From positions 1 through 64,000 of the forward strand of contig NZ_JAPKNI010000001.1 in NCBI RefSeq assembly GCF_026343955.1: 64,000 bases of DNA. The letters run 5' to 3'. Position numbers and translations under genes: made by a program. Under the pieces are notes generated by a model. That model saw only the letters and a list, made by a program, of their open reading frames with translations, was not told the DNA's origin and did not search any database. This stretch comes from Kaistia defluvii. Lineage in GTDB: Bacteria > Pseudomonadota > Alphaproteobacteria > Rhizobiales > Kaistiaceae. Positions within the stretch are counted from its first letter, which is position 1. Each line of letters begins with the position of its first letter. This document shows positions 15,834 to 22,815 of the stretch, in pieces.

Positions 15834-16823
15834 CTAGTAGCGGGCCGGCGCCGCCGGCTTGTTGCCGAGAATCGCGTCGATCTTGTCGAGCACCTCGGGC
15901 GTCAGCTTGTCGCGGCTGTCGAGGGCGGCGAGATTGTCCTGCAGCTGGCTCTTCTTCGATGCGCCGAGGATGACGGTCGAGACATTCTTGTTGGCGAGGC
16001 ACCAGAGCAGCGCCATGTGGTGGATCGGCAGGCCGATCTCCTCGGCCAGCGCCGCCAGCTTCTCGACCTGGGCGATGCGCTGCTTGCCCTTTTCGCCCTG
16101 CCACAGTTCCTTGAGCCACTCATAGCCCGGCAGGTCCAGGCGGCTGCCGGCCGGAATGCCCTTGTTGTACTTGCCGGTCAGGATGCCGGAAGCGAGCGGC
16201 GACCAGATGGTCGTGCCGAGACCCATCAGCTCATAGAGCGGGCGATAGTCGCCCTCGACCTTGTCGCGCTCGAACAGATTGTACTGCGGCTGCTCCATGG
16301 TCGGCGGCGTGATCTTCAGATCCTTCGCCACGGCCCAGGCCTCGGTCAGCTGCTGCGCCGACCATTCCGACGTGCCCCAGTAGAGCACCTTGCCCTGCTG
16401 CACGAGGTCGTGCATGGCGCGCACCGTTTCCTCGATCGGGGTATCGATGTCGGGGCGATGGCAGAAATAGAGGTCGAGATACTCGACCTGCAGGCGCTTC
16501 AGCGCCGCATGGCAGGCGTCGGTGACGTGCTTGCGCGAAAGGCCGCGCTGCGTCGGCTTCGAGCCGCCCCAGAACACCTTGCTGGAGACGATGTAGGAAT
16601 CGCGGCTCCAGGCGAGCTTGGCGAGCGCCTCGCCCATCAGCGTCTCGGAGACGCCGGCCTCATAGCCCTCGGCATTGTCGAAGAAGTTGATTCCGCTGTC
16701 ATAGGCCAGCGTCATGATGTCGAGCGCGTCGCGCTGGTCGACCTGCTTGCCGAACGTGACCCAGGAGCCGAGCGAAAACTCGCTGACCTGCAGGCCCGAC
16801 TTGCCCAAACGGCGATACTGCAT
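15834..16823 (-). CDS. aldo/keto reductase (Kv-beta-like, AKR6-type)
   Basis: Soluble NADPH-dependent aldehyde/ketone reductase of 329 residues. The start MQYRRLGKSGLQVSEFSLG at 16823 is the family N-terminus; the reading frame extends upstream without conservation. Catalytic residues can be placed: Asp and Tyr in NFFDNAEGYEAG, Lys in IVSSKVFWGG and His in DLYFCHRPDID. The family resemblance is to potassium-channel beta-subunit-like and MgrA/YghZ-type reductases. It is 173 bp downstream of nothing on its strand and appears monocistronic. Confidence 0.92.
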   Translation of the reverse strand: MQYRRLGKSGLQVSEFSLGSWVTFGKQVDQRDALDIMTLAYDSGINFFDNAEGYEAGVSETLMGEALAKLAWSRDSYIVSSKVFWGGSKPTQRGLSRKHVTDACHAALKRLQVEYLDLYFCHRPDIDTPIEETVRAMHDLVQQGKVLYWGTSEWSAQQLTEAWAVAKDLKITPPTMEQPQYNLFERDKVEGDYRPLYELMGLGTTIWSPLASGILTGKYNKGIPAGSRLDLPGYEWLKELWQGEKGKQRIAQVEKLAALAEEIGLPIHHMALLWCLANKNVSTVILGASKKSQLQDNLAALDSRDKLTPEVLDKIDAILGNKPAAPARY

Positions 16824-16925
16824 CTTGAATCCGATCTTTCTGGAAATCTTTGTGCGGCGCACGCGCCGCGACTGCAAACTAGTGGAGTTGCTCGCGCCGC
16901 GCCACCATCCGCCCCATGAGGGACG

Positions 16926-17411
16926 TCACGACTCGACCGGCTGGCCCGCGAAGGCCTGCTCCAGCGTCGCAATGTCGATCTTGGTCATTTTCAGCAACGC
17001 CTCCATGACGCGCTGCGATTTCCGGGCATCCGGATCGGTCAGCATCGGCGTGAGCGTGCTGGGCACGATCTGCCAGGAAATGCCGAACCGGTCCGTGACC
17101 CAGCCACAGCGCCTTTCCTGTCCATCCTCGGAGAGCCGCTCCCAGAGATCGTCCAGTTCCGCCTGCTCCTCGCATTTGACCACGAAGGAGATCGCCTCGT
17201 TGAACTGGAAGTGGGGACCACCGTTCAGAGCCGTGAACTCCAGCCCCTCCAGTTCGAAGGACGCGGCCATGACGCTACCCTTGGGGCCGGGGCCCGCCTC
17301 GCCATAGCGAGCGACCTTGCCGACCTTCGCACTCTTGAAGATCGAGACGTAGAAGATGATCGCCTCTTCGACCTGGTTGTCGAACCAAAGAAAAGGAGTG
17401 ATCTTTTGCAT
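16926..17411 (-). CDS. VOC-family protein (PhnB/3-dmu-9_3-mt type)
   Basis: A 161-residue cytoplasmic protein of the vicinal-oxygen-chelate fold. It opens with MQKITPFLWFDNQVEEAI and FYVSIFKSAKVGKVARYGE, and contains the characteristic VTDRFGISWQIVPSTL segment. These PhnB-like proteins are usually of unknown activity. The ATG at 17411 is preceded by a GAGGAT Shine-Dalgarno sequence; the frame continues to 17483, but without a better start. It is divergent from the Anbu operon, sharing a 425-bp control region. Confidence 0.9.
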   Translation of the reverse strand: MQKITPFLWFDNQVEEAIIFYVSIFKSAKVGKVARYGEAGPGPKGSVMAASFELEGLEFTALNGGPHFQFNEAISFVVKCEEQAELDDLWERLSEDGQERRCGWVTDRFGISWQIVPSTLTPMLTDPDARKSQRVMEALLKMTKIDIATLEQAFAGQPVES

Positions 17412-17440
17412 GGCGATATCCTCTTTTCCGATCGGGCTGT

Positions 17441-17468
17441 TCCAAGGGTCCGCGTCCAAGGGTCCGCG
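17441..17468. repeat. tandem 14-bp direct repeat (two copies)
   Basis: TCCAAGGGTCCGCG occurs twice without spacer at 17441-17454 and 17455-17468, in the leader/promoter region of the VOC gene. It may be replication slippage or a doubled binding site; nothing else supports a function. Confidence 0.7.
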
Positions 17469-17641
17469 CCGAGCCGGCCGCACTTCGGCGCGCGATGACT
17501 GGCTAGGTCGGCCCGGCGGGGCGTGTCCCGAGATCGACGCGGCAAGGTCGCCCTGGCGAGAAACCGGAAAACGCCATCACCGCCTTTGCGTTCCCTGCGA
17601 GGCAAGGCGGCCTCTCGCCCCGGCCGCCTGCCTTCTAATTA

Positions 17642-17693
17642 GGCAAATGGTGCCTTCCGCGCCGCGTCAATGCGGAACTGCCGAATTTGGCAG
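17642..17693. promoter_or_regulatory. candidate upstream activator sites for the sigma-54 promoter
   Basis: Two inverted repeats lie 90-140 bp before the sigma-54 promoter: GGCAAATGGTGCC (17642-17654, GGCA-N5-TGCC) and CTGCCGAATTTGGCAG (17678-17693, a 16-bp near-palindrome). Enhancer-binding proteins bind in this distance range. TGGTGC resembles an NtrC half-site but no complete NtrC box is present. The remainder of the 17412-17836 gap shows no gene. Confidence 0.4.
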
Positions 17694-17782
17694 ATAGCCC
17701 CTAGCCAAGAATGCCCGGCTCATATGCAATGGTGCTCGCGCTCCCATGCTGGATGCGCCGTGGCACCCGGGAGAATTCCTGT

Positions 17783-17797
17783 TGGCACGGGGCTTGC
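17783..17797 (+). promoter_or_regulatory. sigma-54 (RpoN) promoter of the Anbu operon
   Basis: TGGCACGGGGCTTGC matches the -24/-12 consensus TGGCACG-N4-TTGC at every defined position, with exactly ten bases between the invariant GG and GC. It lies 40 bp upstream of the ATP-grasp start codon at 17837, so transcription would begin ~25 bp before the start codon. It is in the correct orientation for the four-gene operon. Confidence 0.75.
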
Positions 17798-17836
17798 GGT
17801 TGGGGAGTGACGGCAACCAAAGGGGGATAGCGCGCA

Positions 17837-19255
17837 ATGGTCGTCGCCTTCGATGAGATGAGCGCGAGCCGCGAAAGCTGCCGGCCCGGCTACGAGATCC
17901 TCAAGCGCTGGCTGGATGCGACGCCGCCGGATCTCCTTTCGACCCGCCGCGCCGAGGCGGAACTCCTGTTCCGCCGCATCGGCATCACCTTCGCCGTCTA
18001 TGGCGACAATGATGGCGAGGAGCGGATCATTCCGTTCGACATCATTCCGCGCATCATCACCGCGCCGGAATGGACCAAGCTTTCGAAGGGACTGGAACAG
18101 CGGGTCAAGGCGCTCAACGCCTTCCTGACCGACATCTATTCCAAGGGAGACATCCTGCGCGCCGGCATCGTGCCGCAGGACCTGATCTACCAGAACCCCT
18201 ACTACCAGCCGGAAATGGCCGGGGTGAAGCTGGCGCATGACATCTATGTGATGATCGCCGGCATCGACATCGTCCGCGTCGACCCCGACACCTTCTACGT
18301 GCTCGAGGACAATGCCCGCACGCCTTCCGGAGTCTCCTACATGCTGGAGAACCGGGAAGTGATGATGAAGCTGTTCCCGGACCTGTTCGCCGAGCACCGC
18401 ATCGCCCCGGTCGAGAATTATCCGGACGCGCTGCTCGCCACGCTGAAATCGGTCGCGCCGCGCTCGGCGCCGGGCGACCCGACGGTGGCCCTGCTCACGC
18501 CCGGCCCGTTCAATTCGGCCTTCTACGAGCACTCGTTCCTGGCCGACAAGCTCGGCATCGAACTGGTCGAGGGTCGCGATCTCCAGGTTCGCGACAATGT
18601 CGTCTACATGCGCACGACCGAGGGGCCGAAGCGCGTCGACGTGCTCTATCGCCGCCTCGACGACGACTTCCTCGATCCCCTCACCTTCCGCCCCGATTCG
18701 ATCCTCGGCGTGCCGGGGCTGATGAACGCCTACCGCGCCGGCAACATCACGCTGTCCAACGCCGTCGGCACCGGCGTCGCCGACGACAAGGCGGTCTACT
18801 CCTACATGCCGGAGATCGTCCGCTTCTATCTCGGCGAGGAGCCGATCCTGAAGAACGTGCCGACCTGGCGCTGCCGCGAGCCCGACGCGCTGAAATACGT
18901 CCTCGAGCATCTCGATACCATGGTGGTCAAGGAGGTGGCGGGCTCCGGCGGCTATGGCATGCTGATCGGCCCGGCCGCCGACAAGAAGACCCGCGAGGAA
19001 TTCGGCGCCAAGCTGCGCGCCAATCCGGACGACTTCATTGCCCAGCCGACGCTGGCGCTCTCCACCTCGCCGACCTTCGTCGATGCCGGCATCGCGCCCC
19101 GCCATGTCGACCTGCGTCCCTTCGTGCTTTCGGGCAAGGACAAGGTCCGCATCGTTCCCGGCGGCTTGACCCGCGTCGCCCTCAAGGAGGGCTCGCTGGT
19201 GGTCAATTCGAGCCAGGGCGGCGGCACCAAGGACACGTGGGTGCTCGATGCCTGA
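17837..19255 (+). CDS. circularly permuted ATP-grasp protein (COG2308-type)
   Basis: A 472-residue protein of the circularly permuted ATP-grasp family (COG2308; DUF404/DUF407 regions). Recognisable stretches are QDLIYQNPYYQPEMAGVKL, the nucleotide-site region VLEDNARTPSGVSYMLENRE, and NAVGTGVADDKAVYSYMPEI. Family members are predicted to form amide or peptide bonds with ATP, but no substrate has been shown. It is the first gene of a set with alpha-E, transglutaminase-like and Anbu genes, an association seen in many proteobacteria. It sits 40 bp downstream of a strong sigma-54 promoter match. Confidence 0.92.
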   Translation: MVVAFDEMSASRESCRPGYEILKRWLDATPPDLLSTRRAEAELLFRRIGITFAVYGDNDGEERIIPFDIIPRIITAPEWTKLSKGLEQRVKALNAFLTDIYSKGDILRAGIVPQDLIYQNPYYQPEMAGVKLAHDIYVMIAGIDIVRVDPDTFYVLEDNARTPSGVSYMLENREVMMKLFPDLFAEHRIAPVENYPDALLATLKSVAPRSAPGDPTVALLTPGPFNSAFYEHSFLADKLGIELVEGRDLQVRDNVVYMRTTEGPKRVDVLYRRLDDDFLDPLTFRPDSILGVPGLMNAYRAGNITLSNAVGTGVADDKAVYSYMPEIVRFYLGEEPILKNVPTWRCREPDALKYVLEHLDTMVVKEVAGSGGYGMLIGPAADKKTREEFGAKLRANPDDFIAQPTLALSTSPTFVDAGIAPRHVDLRPFVLSGKDKVRIVPGGLTRVALKEGSLVVNSSQGGGTKDTWVLDA

Positions 19256-19263
19256 ACTGGATA

Positions 19264-19385
19264 GCCCCCGGCCCCATCCCTTCTCCCGTCATCGGGCGAG
19301 GCATGCGGCGCGCGGGCTGGATCGACTTGCGACAGCCGCTCCCTCCCTCCCCCTCGCGGGGCGGGATCGGAGCGAGGGTCTTACC
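19264..19385. repeat. Rhizobiales-type GC-rich intergenic repeat (candidate)
   Basis: The 147-bp gap between the ATP-grasp and alpha-E genes contains CCCTTCTCCCGTCATCGGGC and CTCCCTCCCCCTCGCGGGG, the style of dispersed palindromic elements common in Rhizobiales. It breaks an otherwise compact operon. Repeat status cannot be shown from a single copy. Confidence 0.35.
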
Positions 19386-19402
19386 ATCCGGAGTTGTTTT
19401 CC

Positions 19403-20344
19403 GTGCTGAGCCGTACCGCCGATAATCTGTTCTGGCTTGCCCGCTATGTGGAGCGCGCCGAAAACACCGCCCGCATCATCGACGCCGCGAACCGCCTCGC
19501 CGCCATGCCGATCGCCTATGCCGGCGGTTCGAACGAATGGGAATCCGCCGTCGCCGCCACCGGCGCGCTCGGCCTCTTCAAATCGCTGAACCGCGAGCCG
19601 ACGGCCGAGAACATCATCGATTTCCTCGCCTTCTCGCCGGAAAACCCCTCTTCCATCCGATCCTGCCTTGAGCGCGCCCGCGTCAATGCGCGGACCGTGC
19701 GAACGGCGCTGACATCGGAAATGTGGGACGCGATCAACGGCGCCTGGCTCGGACTGCGCGATTTCAACGGCGCCTCGCGCGACCGGATGAAGCTCAACGA
19801 ATTCCTCGTCTATGTGAAGGAAGCCTCGCTGCGCTTCGATGGTTCGGCCTACCGCACCATGATCCGCAATGACGTCTATTTCTTCTCCAGCCTCGGCACC
19901 TTCATCGAGCGGGCCGACAACACGGCGCGCATTCTCGACGTCAAATACCATCTGCTGCTGCCGGCGGAGGAAAGCGTCGGCGGCGGCCTCGACTTCTTCC
20001 AGTGGTCGTCGATCCTGCGCTCGGTCTCGGCCAACACCGCCTATCACTGGGTCTATCGCGAGAGCCTGAAGCCCTGGCTGGTCGCCGATCTCCTGGTGCT
20101 GAACGACCAACTGCCGCGCTCGCTCGCCTCCTGCTACGACAATATCTGCGCCTTTCTCGACGAGCTCTCGCTCGCCTACGGCCGGCAGGGCCAGGCCCAG
20201 CGCGTCGCGCGCTCGACCCGAAACCGGCTGCAGAACGCCAGTATCGACGACGTGTTCAGCGGCGGCCTGCATGAGTTCCTGACCGAGTTCATCGCCGATA
20301 ACGGTCGTCTTGGACAGGCGATCACCGACCAGTATCTGGCCTGA
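19403..20344 (+). CDS. alpha-E domain protein (COG2307/DUF403)
   Basis: A 313-residue all-helical protein with two internal copies of the alpha-E motif: NLFWLARYVERAENTARIID at the N-terminus and FSSLGTFIERADNTARILDV near residue 165. Its biochemical role is unknown; it nearly always accompanies the COG2308 ATP-grasp protein. The GTG at 19403 is chosen because CGGAG lies nine bases upstream and LSRTADNLFW matches the usual start; a TTG at 19394 has no correctly spaced ribosome site. The next gene follows after 12 bp. Confidence 0.9.
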   Translation: MLSRTADNLFWLARYVERAENTARIIDAANRLAAMPIAYAGGSNEWESAVAATGALGLFKSLNREPTAENIIDFLAFSPENPSSIRSCLERARVNARTVRTALTSEMWDAINGAWLGLRDFNGASRDRMKLNEFLVYVKEASLRFDGSAYRTMIRNDVYFFSSLGTFIERADNTARILDVKYHLLLPAEESVGGGLDFFQWSSILRSVSANTAYHWVYRESLKPWLVADLLVLNDQLPRSLASCYDNICAFLDELSLAYGRQGQAQRVARSTRNRLQNASIDDVFSGGLHEFLTEFIADNGRLGQAITDQYLA

Positions 20345-20356
20345 CGGGAACGGTTC

Positions 20357-21172
20357 ATGCGCCTCCGGATCGTTCACGAGACCGCCTACAGCTTCGATCC
20401 GCCCGCCCTGGGCGCCATCCAGACGCTTCGGCTGACGCCGCGTGGCCATGACGGCCAGTTCGTCGTCAACTGGCGCATCGAGGTCGATCACGACTGCCGG
20501 CTCGATACCGCTACCGACCCGTTCGGCAATGTCGTGCAGTCCTTCACCACCCAGGGAAAGCTCGACGGGTTGGTCATCACCGCGCTCGGCGATGTGGAGA
20601 CCCATGACATGGCCGGCATGGTGCGCGGCCAGACCGAGCGCTTTCCGGTTGGCGTCTTCCTGCGCAGCACGCCGCTGACGGTGCCCGACGCCGGGATCCG
20701 CGCCTTTGCCGAGGATGTCGCCGCCTCCGCGCCAACCGACCGGCTGTCGCGCCTGCACTGGCTGATGAACAGCCTGCACGAGCGGATCCTGCCCGGCGAG
20801 ACGGCCGATGACAGCGCCAGGGCCACATTCGCCGCCGGCAAGGGCGACGCCCGCGCGATGGCGCATGTCATGATCGCCGCCGCCCGTCATCTCGGTATTC
20901 CGGCGCGCTATGCGAGCGGCTATCTGTTCCGGCCCGACGCAGAGACGCCGGCGACCCACGAGCATGGCTGGGCGGAGGCCCATCTCGACGGTGTCGGCTG
21001 GGTCGGATTCGATGTGGCAACGAATCTCTGTCCGACCGATACTCACGTCAGGCTGGCCATCGGTCTGGACCGAATCGGTTCCTCTCCGGTGCGCGGGGCG
21101 GCCTATGGCGACGGGGTGACCGCGCCCACGGTCTCGATCAGCGTATCGGAAGCGCGCTCGGCCCGAAGTTAG
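20357..21172 (+). CDS. transglutaminase-like protein lacking the catalytic cysteine
   Basis: A 271-residue protein with the bacterial transglutaminase N-terminal domain (MRLRIVHETAYSFDPPALGA) and a transglutaminase/protease core. In active relatives the nucleophile lies in a GVCxDxAH motif; here the aligned stretch is GKGDARAMAHVMIAAARHLG, with Ala165 where Cys is expected and Ala167 where Asp is expected. The His (His203, THEHGWAEAHL) and Asp (Asp219, GWVGFD) are kept. It is therefore probably a binding or scaffolding member rather than a protease. Located between alpha-E (12 bp upstream) and Anbu (78 bp downstream). Confidence 0.88.
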   Translation: MRLRIVHETAYSFDPPALGAIQTLRLTPRGHDGQFVVNWRIEVDHDCRLDTATDPFGNVVQSFTTQGKLDGLVITALGDVETHDMAGMVRGQTERFPVGVFLRSTPLTVPDAGIRAFAEDVAASAPTDRLSRLHWLMNSLHERILPGETADDSARATFAAGKGDARAMAHVMIAAARHLGIPARYASGYLFRPDAETPATHEHGWAEAHLDGVGWVGFDVATNLCPTDTHVRLAIGLDRIGSSPVRGAAYGDGVTAPTVSISVSEARSARS

Positions 21173-21250
21173 TCCGGCGTCGATTTTTCACTTGCACCTC
21201 AATTTTTGCGGCCTAAAACTCCGGCCGGGGTGGGGCAGGATAAAGAGTCT

Positions 21251-21994
21251 ATGACTTATTGCGTTGGAATCCTGGTTCGCGAAGGCCTTGTGATGTTGGC
21301 CGATACGCGCACCAATGCCGGCCTCGACAACATTGCGACGTACCGCAAGCTGCACCTCTACCAGACCGAGGGCGAGCGCGTGATCGCGATCGCCACGGCG
21401 GGCAACCTTGCCGTCAGCCAGTCGGTTCTGAACGTCCTGACCGAAGGCCTGGAAAACCCGGAAACGGGCAAGATCGACACGATCCACACCATCCCGACGA
21501 TGTTCAAGGTGGCGCAGTTCGTCGGGCGGGCGATCCGCGAGGTCTACCGCATCCATGGCAAGTCGATGGAGCAGCAGGCCGCCAGCTTCGACGTCACCAT
21601 GCTGCTCGCCGGCCAGGTCAAGGGCGGGCGTCTGCGTCTGTTCATGGTCTACTCCGCCGGCAATTTCATCGAGGCGACGACCGACACGCCCTATCTGCAG
21701 ATCGGCGAGCACAAATACGGCAAGCCGATCCTGGACCGCGCCGTCACCGCCGACACGCCGATTTCCGAAGCGCTGAAGCTCGGGCTGGTGTCGATGGATT
21801 CGACGCTGCGCTCCAATCTCGGCGTCGGCATGCCGATCGACGTCGTGGTCGTCCGTCGCGACGAGCTGAAGATCTCGATCTCGCACCGCATCGATGACAA
21901 CGACGCCTATTTCGCGGGCCTGCGCGAACGCTGGTCGGCAGCGCTGCGCGCCGCGCACCAGGCAATCCCCGATCCGCCATACGGCCCGATCTAG
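21251..21994 (+). CDS. anbu: Anbu (ancestral beta subunit) proteasome-like protein
   Basis: A 247-residue member of the Ntn-hydrolase/20S-proteasome beta-subunit family of the Anbu type, related to HslV. It opens MTYCVGILVREGLVMLADTR; Thr2 would become the N-terminal nucleophile after methionine removal, with Asp18 (ADTRTNAG) and Lys33 (TYRKL) at the positions corresponding to catalytic Asp17 and Lys33 of proteasome beta subunits. Known Anbu proteins form open helical assemblies rather than closed rings, and natural substrates are unknown. The ATG at 21251 gives the conserved N-terminus; an upstream frame at 21206 would block the Thr. Last gene of the operon. Confidence 0.93.
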   Translation: MTYCVGILVREGLVMLADTRTNAGLDNIATYRKLHLYQTEGERVIAIATAGNLAVSQSVLNVLTEGLENPETGKIDTIHTIPTMFKVAQFVGRAIREVYRIHGKSMEQQAASFDVTMLLAGQVKGGRLRLFMVYSAGNFIEATTDTPYLQIGEHKYGKPILDRAVTADTPISEALKLGLVSMDSTLRSNLGVGMPIDVVVVRRDELKISISHRIDDNDAYFAGLRERWSAALRAAHQAIPDPPYGPI

Positions 21995-22146
21995 CGGCGG
22001 GCCGCGCTCCGGCCCCGGAATCGCCTCCCCTGCCGGGCCGAGGCGCCCCGGCGGCTTCGATTGACAGGCGGGGTGGCGGCATCGATACCAGCGTCGAGGG
22101 CGGCGCCGTTCGGCCGTCCCGACGATTTCGTGGAGCACCCATCATC

Positions 22147-22590
22147 ATGACCGACAAGCCCAGCCTGACGCTGAAGCGCCAGTTGAAGGCGTCGCCCGCC
22201 CGGATCTTCAAGGCCTGGACCGACCCTGCCAAGCTCGTCCATTGGTGGGGCCCGCATGATACCGAGGAAGGCAGCGTCGAGGCCGAGACGGATCTCCGCG
22301 TCGGCGGCGCCTTCCGCATTCGCCTCAAGACGTCCGACGGCCGGTCGCACGAGGCCAGCGGCACCTACCAGGAGATCGCCCCCAACGAGGGGCTGGTGAT
22401 GACCTGGCTTGCCTCGGCCGACGCGCCCGGCCTCGTCACCGTGACGTTCCGCGGTGAAGCAGGCGGCACCATGCTGACGCTGACCCATGACGGCCTTGCC
22501 GACGAGGCAAGCCGCGCCAGCCACCAGGCCATCTGGGCCGGCGCGATCGAACGGCTCGAACGGTTCGTCACCCGCGGCGGCAAGAAATAG
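22147..22590 (+). CDS. SRPBCC / AHSA1-family protein
   Basis: A 147-residue START-like fold protein of the activator-of-Hsp90-ATPase (AHSA1/CalC) type: LTLKRQLKASPARIFKAWTD, the loop LVHWWGPHDTEEG and a C-terminal amphipathic helix. Such proteins bind small hydrophobic molecules; a specific ligand is unknown. The start follows 152 bp after Anbu. Often found with ArsR-type regulators, but none is present here. Confidence 0.88.
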   Translation: MTDKPSLTLKRQLKASPARIFKAWTDPAKLVHWWGPHDTEEGSVEAETDLRVGGAFRIRLKTSDGRSHEASGTYQEIAPNEGLVMTWLASADAPGLVTVTFRGEAGGTMLTLTHDGLADEASRASHQAIWAGAIERLERFVTRGGKK

Positions 22591-22815
22591 CGGCGGCCTG
22601 CCGCCCGCGATCACCAGCGCGCGCGACGTTCTGTACCGTTTCCTCGGGCTTTAGGAGGCCCGGGGGAGATCGGGTTGGCAGGATGGCCCGATCGATCCAG
22701 CCTCTTGGCCGAACCAGTTCGCTTATATAGGCTGGCGCCAGCACGGCTCTTGTCAGGAGCGTGCCGCCATCCTGCGGGCCGACCCGATCCGCTGGCAAGT
22801 TCGACGGGGTTTCTC

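Follow-up and report, generated by a model that had tools for sequence, protein, structure and literature searches.

Described Anbu operons and nitrogen limitation

Anbu is a proteasome-like hydrolase of the N-terminal nucleophile (Ntn) type with solved structures and, to our knowledge, no known substrate. The present study concerns an Anbu operon, and the sigma-54 promoter element in front of it, in a stretch of 64,000 nucleotides from Kaistia defluvii (RefSeq assembly GCF_026343955.1, contig NZ_JAPKNI010000001.1, positions 1 to 64,000 of the forward strand), which is hereafter called the window. In a related cluster of Burkholderia cenocepacia H111 (I35_5080-83), the products named DUF404/407 and DUF403 presumably correspond to an ATP-grasp and an Alpha-E protein, respectively. 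This cluster is reported as a common target of NtrC and sigma-54; as described, it differs from the operon of the window in having no Anbu among its four genes and in encoding two transglutaminase-like proteins (PMC5491218). The complete four-gene set of ATP-grasp, alphaE, transglutaminase-like protein and Anbu, as found in the window, is known from a description of the Yersinia bercovieri operon and from surveys (PMC6376114, PMC5666114), and peptidase assays of Anbu are reported as negative (PMC6376114).

Induction by nitrogen limitation in Pseudomonas putida is reported in three papers (PMC5666114, PMC6376114, PMC7801951), citing Hervas et al. 2008/2009, and the first two describe Anbu as up-regulated in nitrogen-limited or nitrogen-starved cells on the basis of the P. 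putida work. The trigger of this system, which the initial annotation of the window had called not known, was therefore already in print for that species. The P. putida KT2440 operon PP_2685-PP_2688 resembles that of the window in combining proteasome-beta-like and transglutaminase genes; it is nitrogen-limitation-induced, and Table 2 of the paper assigns it to NtrB/NtrC (PMC7801951). In the literature covered, which mostly did not include subscription journals, no title or start of an abstract dealt with a sigma-54 promoter or NtrC boxes of an alphaproteobacterial Anbu operon, and none of the papers combining 'Anbu' and 'NtrC' was about the operon as judged by title or start of abstract. New here are the conserved NtrC boxes, which also occur where no sigma-54 site is found, and the loss of the catalytic cysteine from the transglutaminase-like protein in the genus.

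A conserved sigma-54 promoter element

The promoter element lies 40 base pairs (bp) upstream of the first gene:

17783..17797, plus strand, sigma-54 -24/-12 element TGGCACGGGGCTTGC, identified by consensus match and conservation; transcription presumably starts near 17809

The initial annotation had described a TGGCACG-N4-TTGC match in the right orientation and with exact GG-N10-GC spacing, and this description holds: TGGCACG-GGGC-TTGC agrees with the consensus at 11 of 11 positions and is the sole exact match in the window. Matches with at most two mismatches are found 27 times in the window, against a mean of 26.5 after shuffling. The entire genome (4.9 Mb) contains two exact consensus sites and four of the reversed pattern, so that by number alone the sites do not exceed the chance expectation, and the evidence for a promoter consists of position, orientation and conservation. 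Genome-wide motif counts were discarded as evidence, including those for the relaxed pattern TGGCAYR-N4-YTGC (19 sites versus 60 reversed); the deficit of the relaxed pattern could mean that stray sigma-54 sites are avoided, or could be due to coding bias alone.

Both counts would be compatible with a chance match and no functional promoter at 17783, as two exact sites in 4.9 Mb equal the chance expectation, but the comparison with relatives makes this explanation extremely improbable. The 14 aligned upstream regions, taken from the window, 12 members of the same genus and a member of a second genus in the family (L125), all have the same TGGCA and TTGC, both in a MAFFT alignment that did not use the motif and in a motif-registered alignment. 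The surroundings, by contrast, show clear variation in two of the four spacer columns and in the majority of the flanking ones. Anbu was found in 13 relatives of the same genus; the operon start is available for 12 of them (all but the truncated G006), and each of these 12 has the -24/-12 element, so that the comparison with close relatives proposed in the initial annotation came out in favour of the promoter.

A wider set comprised 117 upstream regions, most of them from members of the order; the best coding-strand match reaches at least 10/11 in 54 of these, whereas the controls give 0 (minus strand), 0 (N3), 4 (N5) and 1 (reversed motif). The contrast is weaker at a threshold of at least 9/11 (66 versus 13, 9, 38 and 7, respectively), where the N5 count of 38 stems largely from the Bradyrhizobium group; the loci of this group mostly have TGGCCCG-N4-TTGC. 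The 117 regions remained from 141 Anbu loci (window included) after removal of 19 without an ATP-grasp match and 5 that were incomplete. Anbu was present in 66 genomes, the window's own included, and the regions of 60 relatives were taken, leaving out G024, G058, G064, G082 and G094. Some genomes are present twice, a few loci (e.g. L152 and L154) have the ATP-grasp gene on the strand opposite to Anbu, and the 54 include an 11/11 match at -315 (L171) that is probably no promoter. Among 45 upstream regions from the class and phylum, five reach at least 10/11 and every control gives 0; these remained from 60 loci hand-picked for family spread from 145 matches, 15 of which lacked an ATP-grasp match, and in five of the 45 (L238, L239, L240, L249 and L262) the ATP-grasp gene is on the strand opposite to Anbu.

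NtrC-like dyads upstream of the promoter

The Escherichia coli NtrC consensus is TGCACC-N5-GGTGCA, i.e. TGC-N11-GCA. Two dyads of this form, one of them within a conserved block, precede the promoter element:

17712..17728, no strand assigned, proximal NtrC-like dyad TGC-N11-GCA TGCCCGGCTCATATGCA, 71 bp upstream of the -24 element; identified by conservation and spacing enrichment
17629..17645, no strand assigned, distal NtrC-like dyad TGC-N11-GCA TGCCTTCTAATTAGGCA; identified by conservation in the 14 aligned upstream regions
17701..17730, plus strand, 30-bp conserved block CTAGCCAAGAnTGCnCGnnTnATATGCAAT holding the proximal dyad; identified in the genus alignment

The -24 element is preceded by the dyad centres at distances of about 63 and 146 bp. 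The initial annotation had placed palindromes for an enhancer-binding protein 90-140 bp upstream; this is right for the proximal dyad, which lies 109-125 bp before the ATG, while the distal dyad is further out, and the palindrome CTGCCGAATTTGGCAG at 17678-17693, conspicuous by eye, was rejected as an enhancer site as it is seen in only 2 of the 14 aligned upstream regions. The proximal dyad is exact in 10/14 and has at most one mismatch in 14/14 of these regions, and the distal dyad, which has the same form as the dyads upstream of glnK in the genus, is exact in 6/14 and has at most one mismatch in 13/14 (none in L125). The distance between the two dyads is 82-83 bp in 12 of 13 cases (83 bp in the window) and 73 bp in L117, corresponding to about eight and seven helical turns.

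When 14 half-site pairs were scanned at spacings of 2-21 in the 200 bp preceding the -24 element of 39 non-redundant upstream regions, TGC-N11-GCA gave the top value (25/39); the same half-sites at other spacings gave 1-8, and any other pair at most 15. In a larger sample, comprising 132 of 162 upstream regions after dropping near-duplicates and those shorter than 300 bp, TGC-N11-GCA is present in 31 of the 49 regions with a sigma-54 site (at least 9/11 with GG and GC), compared to 1-10 for the other spacings from 5 to 17 and to a mean of 2.4 (maximum 11) in shuffled sequences. When the genus is omitted, 22 of 39 remain (other spacings 0-10). The dyad was also found, unexpectedly, in 28 of the 83 regions without such a site (other spacings 2-8; shuffles mean 3.8, maximum 11). 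The background frequency is 442 in 6550 random 170-bp windows of the same loci.

With up to three mismatches allowed, the core of the conserved block has no second copy in the genome. Its left arm CTAGCCAAG (17701-17709) is nearly invariant in the genus and is part of no TGC-N11-GCA dyad; it may be a binding site for another factor. Two other readings of the block, a second sigma-54 site and a sigma-70 promoter in either orientation, were rejected by inspection, as the hexamers or the GG/GC spacing do not fit. In six Microvirga loci (L044, L047, L051, L054, L059 and L061) an NtrC-like dyad is conserved some 164-171 bp ahead of the ATP-grasp start and no sigma-54 site can be recognised, and a block around AGGCAACTAA, nearer to the gene than the dyad, is also conserved in these upstream regions.

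Activators and nitrogen genes of the host

The genome encodes one copy of RpoN (PF04552, 2.7e-71) and an NtrC (L203; TIGR01818, 722 bits with a cut-off of 558.6) carrying EKGAFTGAQ. Seven proteins match PF00158, three of them weakly (4.4e-6 to 1.4e-4). Among the four strong matches the GAFTGA motif is present in NtrC and a LuxO-like protein and absent from NtrX and the fourth protein; within these four, two could therefore drive the promoter.

Among the standard targets of NtrC is glnB, and TGGCACG-N4-CTGC occurs at this gene in 14 of 14 genus genomes; glnK has TGGCACG-N4-TTGA in 12 of 14. The glnBA and glnK genes thus resemble the Anbu operon in their sigma-54-type elements, and glnK also in its NtrC-like dyads; they differ in being known nitrogen-assimilation genes and in their -12 sequence (CTGC for glnB, TTGA for glnK). 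In Caulobacter, NtrC is reported to occupy the glnBA and glnK promoters in chromatin immunoprecipitation sequencing (PMC10274813).

As two of the four strong PF00158 matches carry GAFTGA, the -24/-12 element could be real while the enhancer sites belong to another activator, likeliest the LuxO/TacA-like protein at G000:C20, and the signal would then not be nitrogen. Such an activator could account for the CTAGCCAAG arm outside any TGC-N11-GCA dyad and would agree with the lack of an exact dyad at glnB of the same genome. The dyad of the Anbu operon, however, has the NtrC spacing and also occurs at glnK of the genus, and in P. putida the operon responds to nitrogen limitation by induction (PMC5666114, PMC6376114, PMC7801951). 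We therefore regard control by another activator as unlikely.

The other exact sigma-54 consensus of the genome (L002 1501-1515; G000:C12:313494-313508) is found about 30 bp before the gene of an ATP-binding cassette (ABC) transporter ATPase, with two TGC-N11-GCA dyads upstream and a divergent gene resembling dihydropyrimidine dehydrogenase. A dyad within 200 bp upstream is present at 4 of the 19 genomic TGGCAYR-N4-YTGC sites, i.e. those of the Anbu operon, the ABC-transporter ATPase and two others.

Proposed nitrogen control of the operon

Most probably the four genes form one transcription unit with a sigma-54 promoter that is activated by phosphorylated NtrC at nitrogen shortage, and their products would handle peptides. 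The nitrogen induction published for P. putida, and the dependence of the Anbu-free B. cenocepacia cluster on NtrC and sigma-54, agree with this explanation. The suggestion in the initial annotation of a sigma-54 promoter responding to an enhancer-binding protein and a nitrogen-type signal is supported by the element in 12 of 12 same-genus relatives and by the NtrC spacing of the dyads. We propose that nitrogen shortage would lead to phosphorylation of NtrC, dimers of which would bind the two dyads and assemble; by looping of the DNA, NtrC would remodel the sigma-54 RNA polymerase at 17783-17797, and transcription would start near 17809. The products may constitute a peptide-handling system for nitrogen starvation, in which the ATP-grasp enzyme would make or add a peptide bond and Anbu would act on the amide.

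Several observations speak against this explanation. The 83 of 132 non-redundant upstream regions without a sigma-54 site imply that the promoter is not universal, and Microvirga has retained the dyad yet shows no such site in seven aligned loci. The GC-rich pairs GGC/GCC and CGC/GCG reach 15/39 at some spacing in the half-site scan, and as related species share ancestry, the dyad counts are not independent. An exact TGC-N11-GCA is present within 450 bp of glnB in 4 of the 14 genus genomes, the window's own not among them. The glnK upstream regions contain it in 8 of 14 cases versus 7 of 14 for an N12 spacing, so that exact counting discriminates poorly there; in the other six, GCC-N9-GGC encloses an AT-rich core, a pattern that was chosen as a criterion after inspection. 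Finally, in P. putida KT2440, PP_2686-2688 are induced 14.2/16.0/19.6 in an rpoN mutant versus 12.6/11.0/14.7 in the wild type, and PP_2685 (Anbu) barely changes (1.12 in the wild type, 1.45 in the rpoN mutant) (PMC7801951); this operon thus differs from the one proposed here in that induction of three genes is RpoN-independent and Anbu itself is hardly changed. As urtA-D, which Table 2 of that paper also lists under NtrB/NtrC, likewise stay induced without RpoN (PMC7801951), the P. putida mutant data may not isolate sigma-54 control.

The persisting induction in the rpoN mutant, together with the enrichment of dyads in upstream regions without a sigma-54 site (28/83), would fit an arrangement in which NtrC acts mainly through a non-sigma-54 promoter and the -24/-12 match is minor or redundant; the NtrC proteins of Caulobacter and Rhodobacter, which lack GAFTGA, are reported to act at sigma-70 promoters (PMC10274813). 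For the window we consider this arrangement distinctly improbable, since -24 and -12 are invariant in the genus, the NtrC of this genome keeps GAFTGA, and a sigma-70 scan of 16800-22600 gave one weak site, located on the other strand.

Under the preferred explanation, activation of a sigma-54 promoter by NtrC, the conserved switch points to nitrogen-starved cells as the place to look for the role of Anbu, and an effect of losing the operon is predicted to show when nitrogen is limiting or while cells recover. As NtrC-like boxes precede the operon in many families, nitrogen control seems not to be a peculiarity of Pseudomonas. It is conceivable, if on balance somewhat doubtful, that the nitrogen-starvation regulon of NtrC has long included the Anbu operon across Alphaproteobacteria and some other Pseudomonadota, that the boxes of the operon have outlasted changes of promoter type, and that the transglutaminase-like partner in the genus is a non-catalytic pseudoenzyme that has been kept by selection. 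If the boxes have indeed outlasted the promoter type, being combined with sigma-54 in some lineages and with another type elsewhere, the ancestral job of Anbu would have been in nitrogen starvation. Worth following are the pseudo-transglutaminase, the CTAGCCAAG arm that fits no dyad, and the conserved boxes of upstream regions lacking a sigma-54 site.

Gene products of the operon

The genes downstream of the promoter element, and the site preceding the first of them, are:

17820..17826, plus strand, AAGGGGG resembling a ribosome-binding site, read from the sequence
17837..19255, plus strand, gene 1 of the operon preceded by the sigma-54 element, circularly permuted ATP-grasp protein (peptide-ligase-like) of 472 residues; PF14403, 558 bits
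19403..20344, plus strand, gene 2, Alpha-E protein; PF04168, 318 bits (Pfam Alpha-E, 9.9e-95)
20357..21172, plus strand, gene 3, transglutaminase-like protein of 271 residues; PF08379 (Bact_transglu_N) and PF01841 (Transglut_core)
21251..21994, plus strand, gene 4, Anbu, proteasome-like Ntn hydrolase; Pfam Proteasome 7.7e-7, residues and structures

The identities that the initial annotation had given to the ATP-grasp, Alpha-E, transglutaminase-like and Anbu neighbours are confirmed by Pfam and structure matches. The ATP-grasp product matches CP_ATPgrasp_2 at 1.1e-167, and the Anbu product matches solved chains named Anbu or 'peptidase' at 7.3e-66 to 1.6e-81. The candidate catalytic residues of published Anbu proteins, Thr1, Asp17 and Lys32(33) (PMC6376114, PMC5666114), are all retained in the window as Thr1, Asp17 and Lys32. 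Across the 134 loci of a residue survey (window, L100-L172 and L210-L269, with L033-L099 outside it), Thr1 is present in 133 and Asp17 and Lys32 in all. For Alpha-E the GTG start at 19403 was preferred over the TTG at 19394 of the open reading frame list; the genome match extends over 19403-20338. No terminator-like site was found in 16800-22600, and no Rfam family reaches its gathering score anywhere in the window.

The gap between the ATP-grasp and Alpha-E genes (19256-19402) is GC-rich and varies from about 12 to about 148 bp among genus members; it was dismissed as a repeat, as a probe from it (19343-19361) has one copy only. A second ATP-grasp and Alpha-E pair, without Anbu, is encoded elsewhere as a single open frame of 881 residues (L290, G000:C3:144747-146927). 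This locus has no NtrC-like dyad and its best sigma-54 site is at most 9/11, and the pair was therefore treated as probably not co-regulated.

A transglutaminase-like partner without catalytic cysteine

The transglutaminase-like protein of the window has the motif GDARAMAH where relatives have GVCQDFAH. The catalytic cysteine is thus replaced by alanine, with His and Asp kept, and the Cys-His-Asp triad of an active transglutaminase or cysteine protease is incomplete in this copy. The loss would set the window operon apart from the Anbu operon described in the literature. Of the 114 surveyed loci with a transglutaminase-like match, 94 have the cysteine and 20 do not. Of the 14 copies in the genus, 13 have A, P or G in its place, with His and Asp retained; the remaining one (L161) adjoins an Anbu only 50% identical to that of the window. 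Outside the genus, loss was seen in seven loci (L125, L126, L130, L131, L138, L140 and L141).

No stop codons interrupt the window copy or those of L113-L125. The ratio of nonsynonymous to synonymous substitution rates (dN/dS) in six genus pairs is 0.055-0.21, above that of the three neighbouring genes in each pair and no higher than in two family pairs that keep the cysteine (0.16 and 0.33). Such low values indicate that purifying selection still acts on the protein, which appears to be kept in the genus for something other than cysteine catalysis. The loss argues against models in which the transglutaminase-like protein always needs cysteine catalysis.

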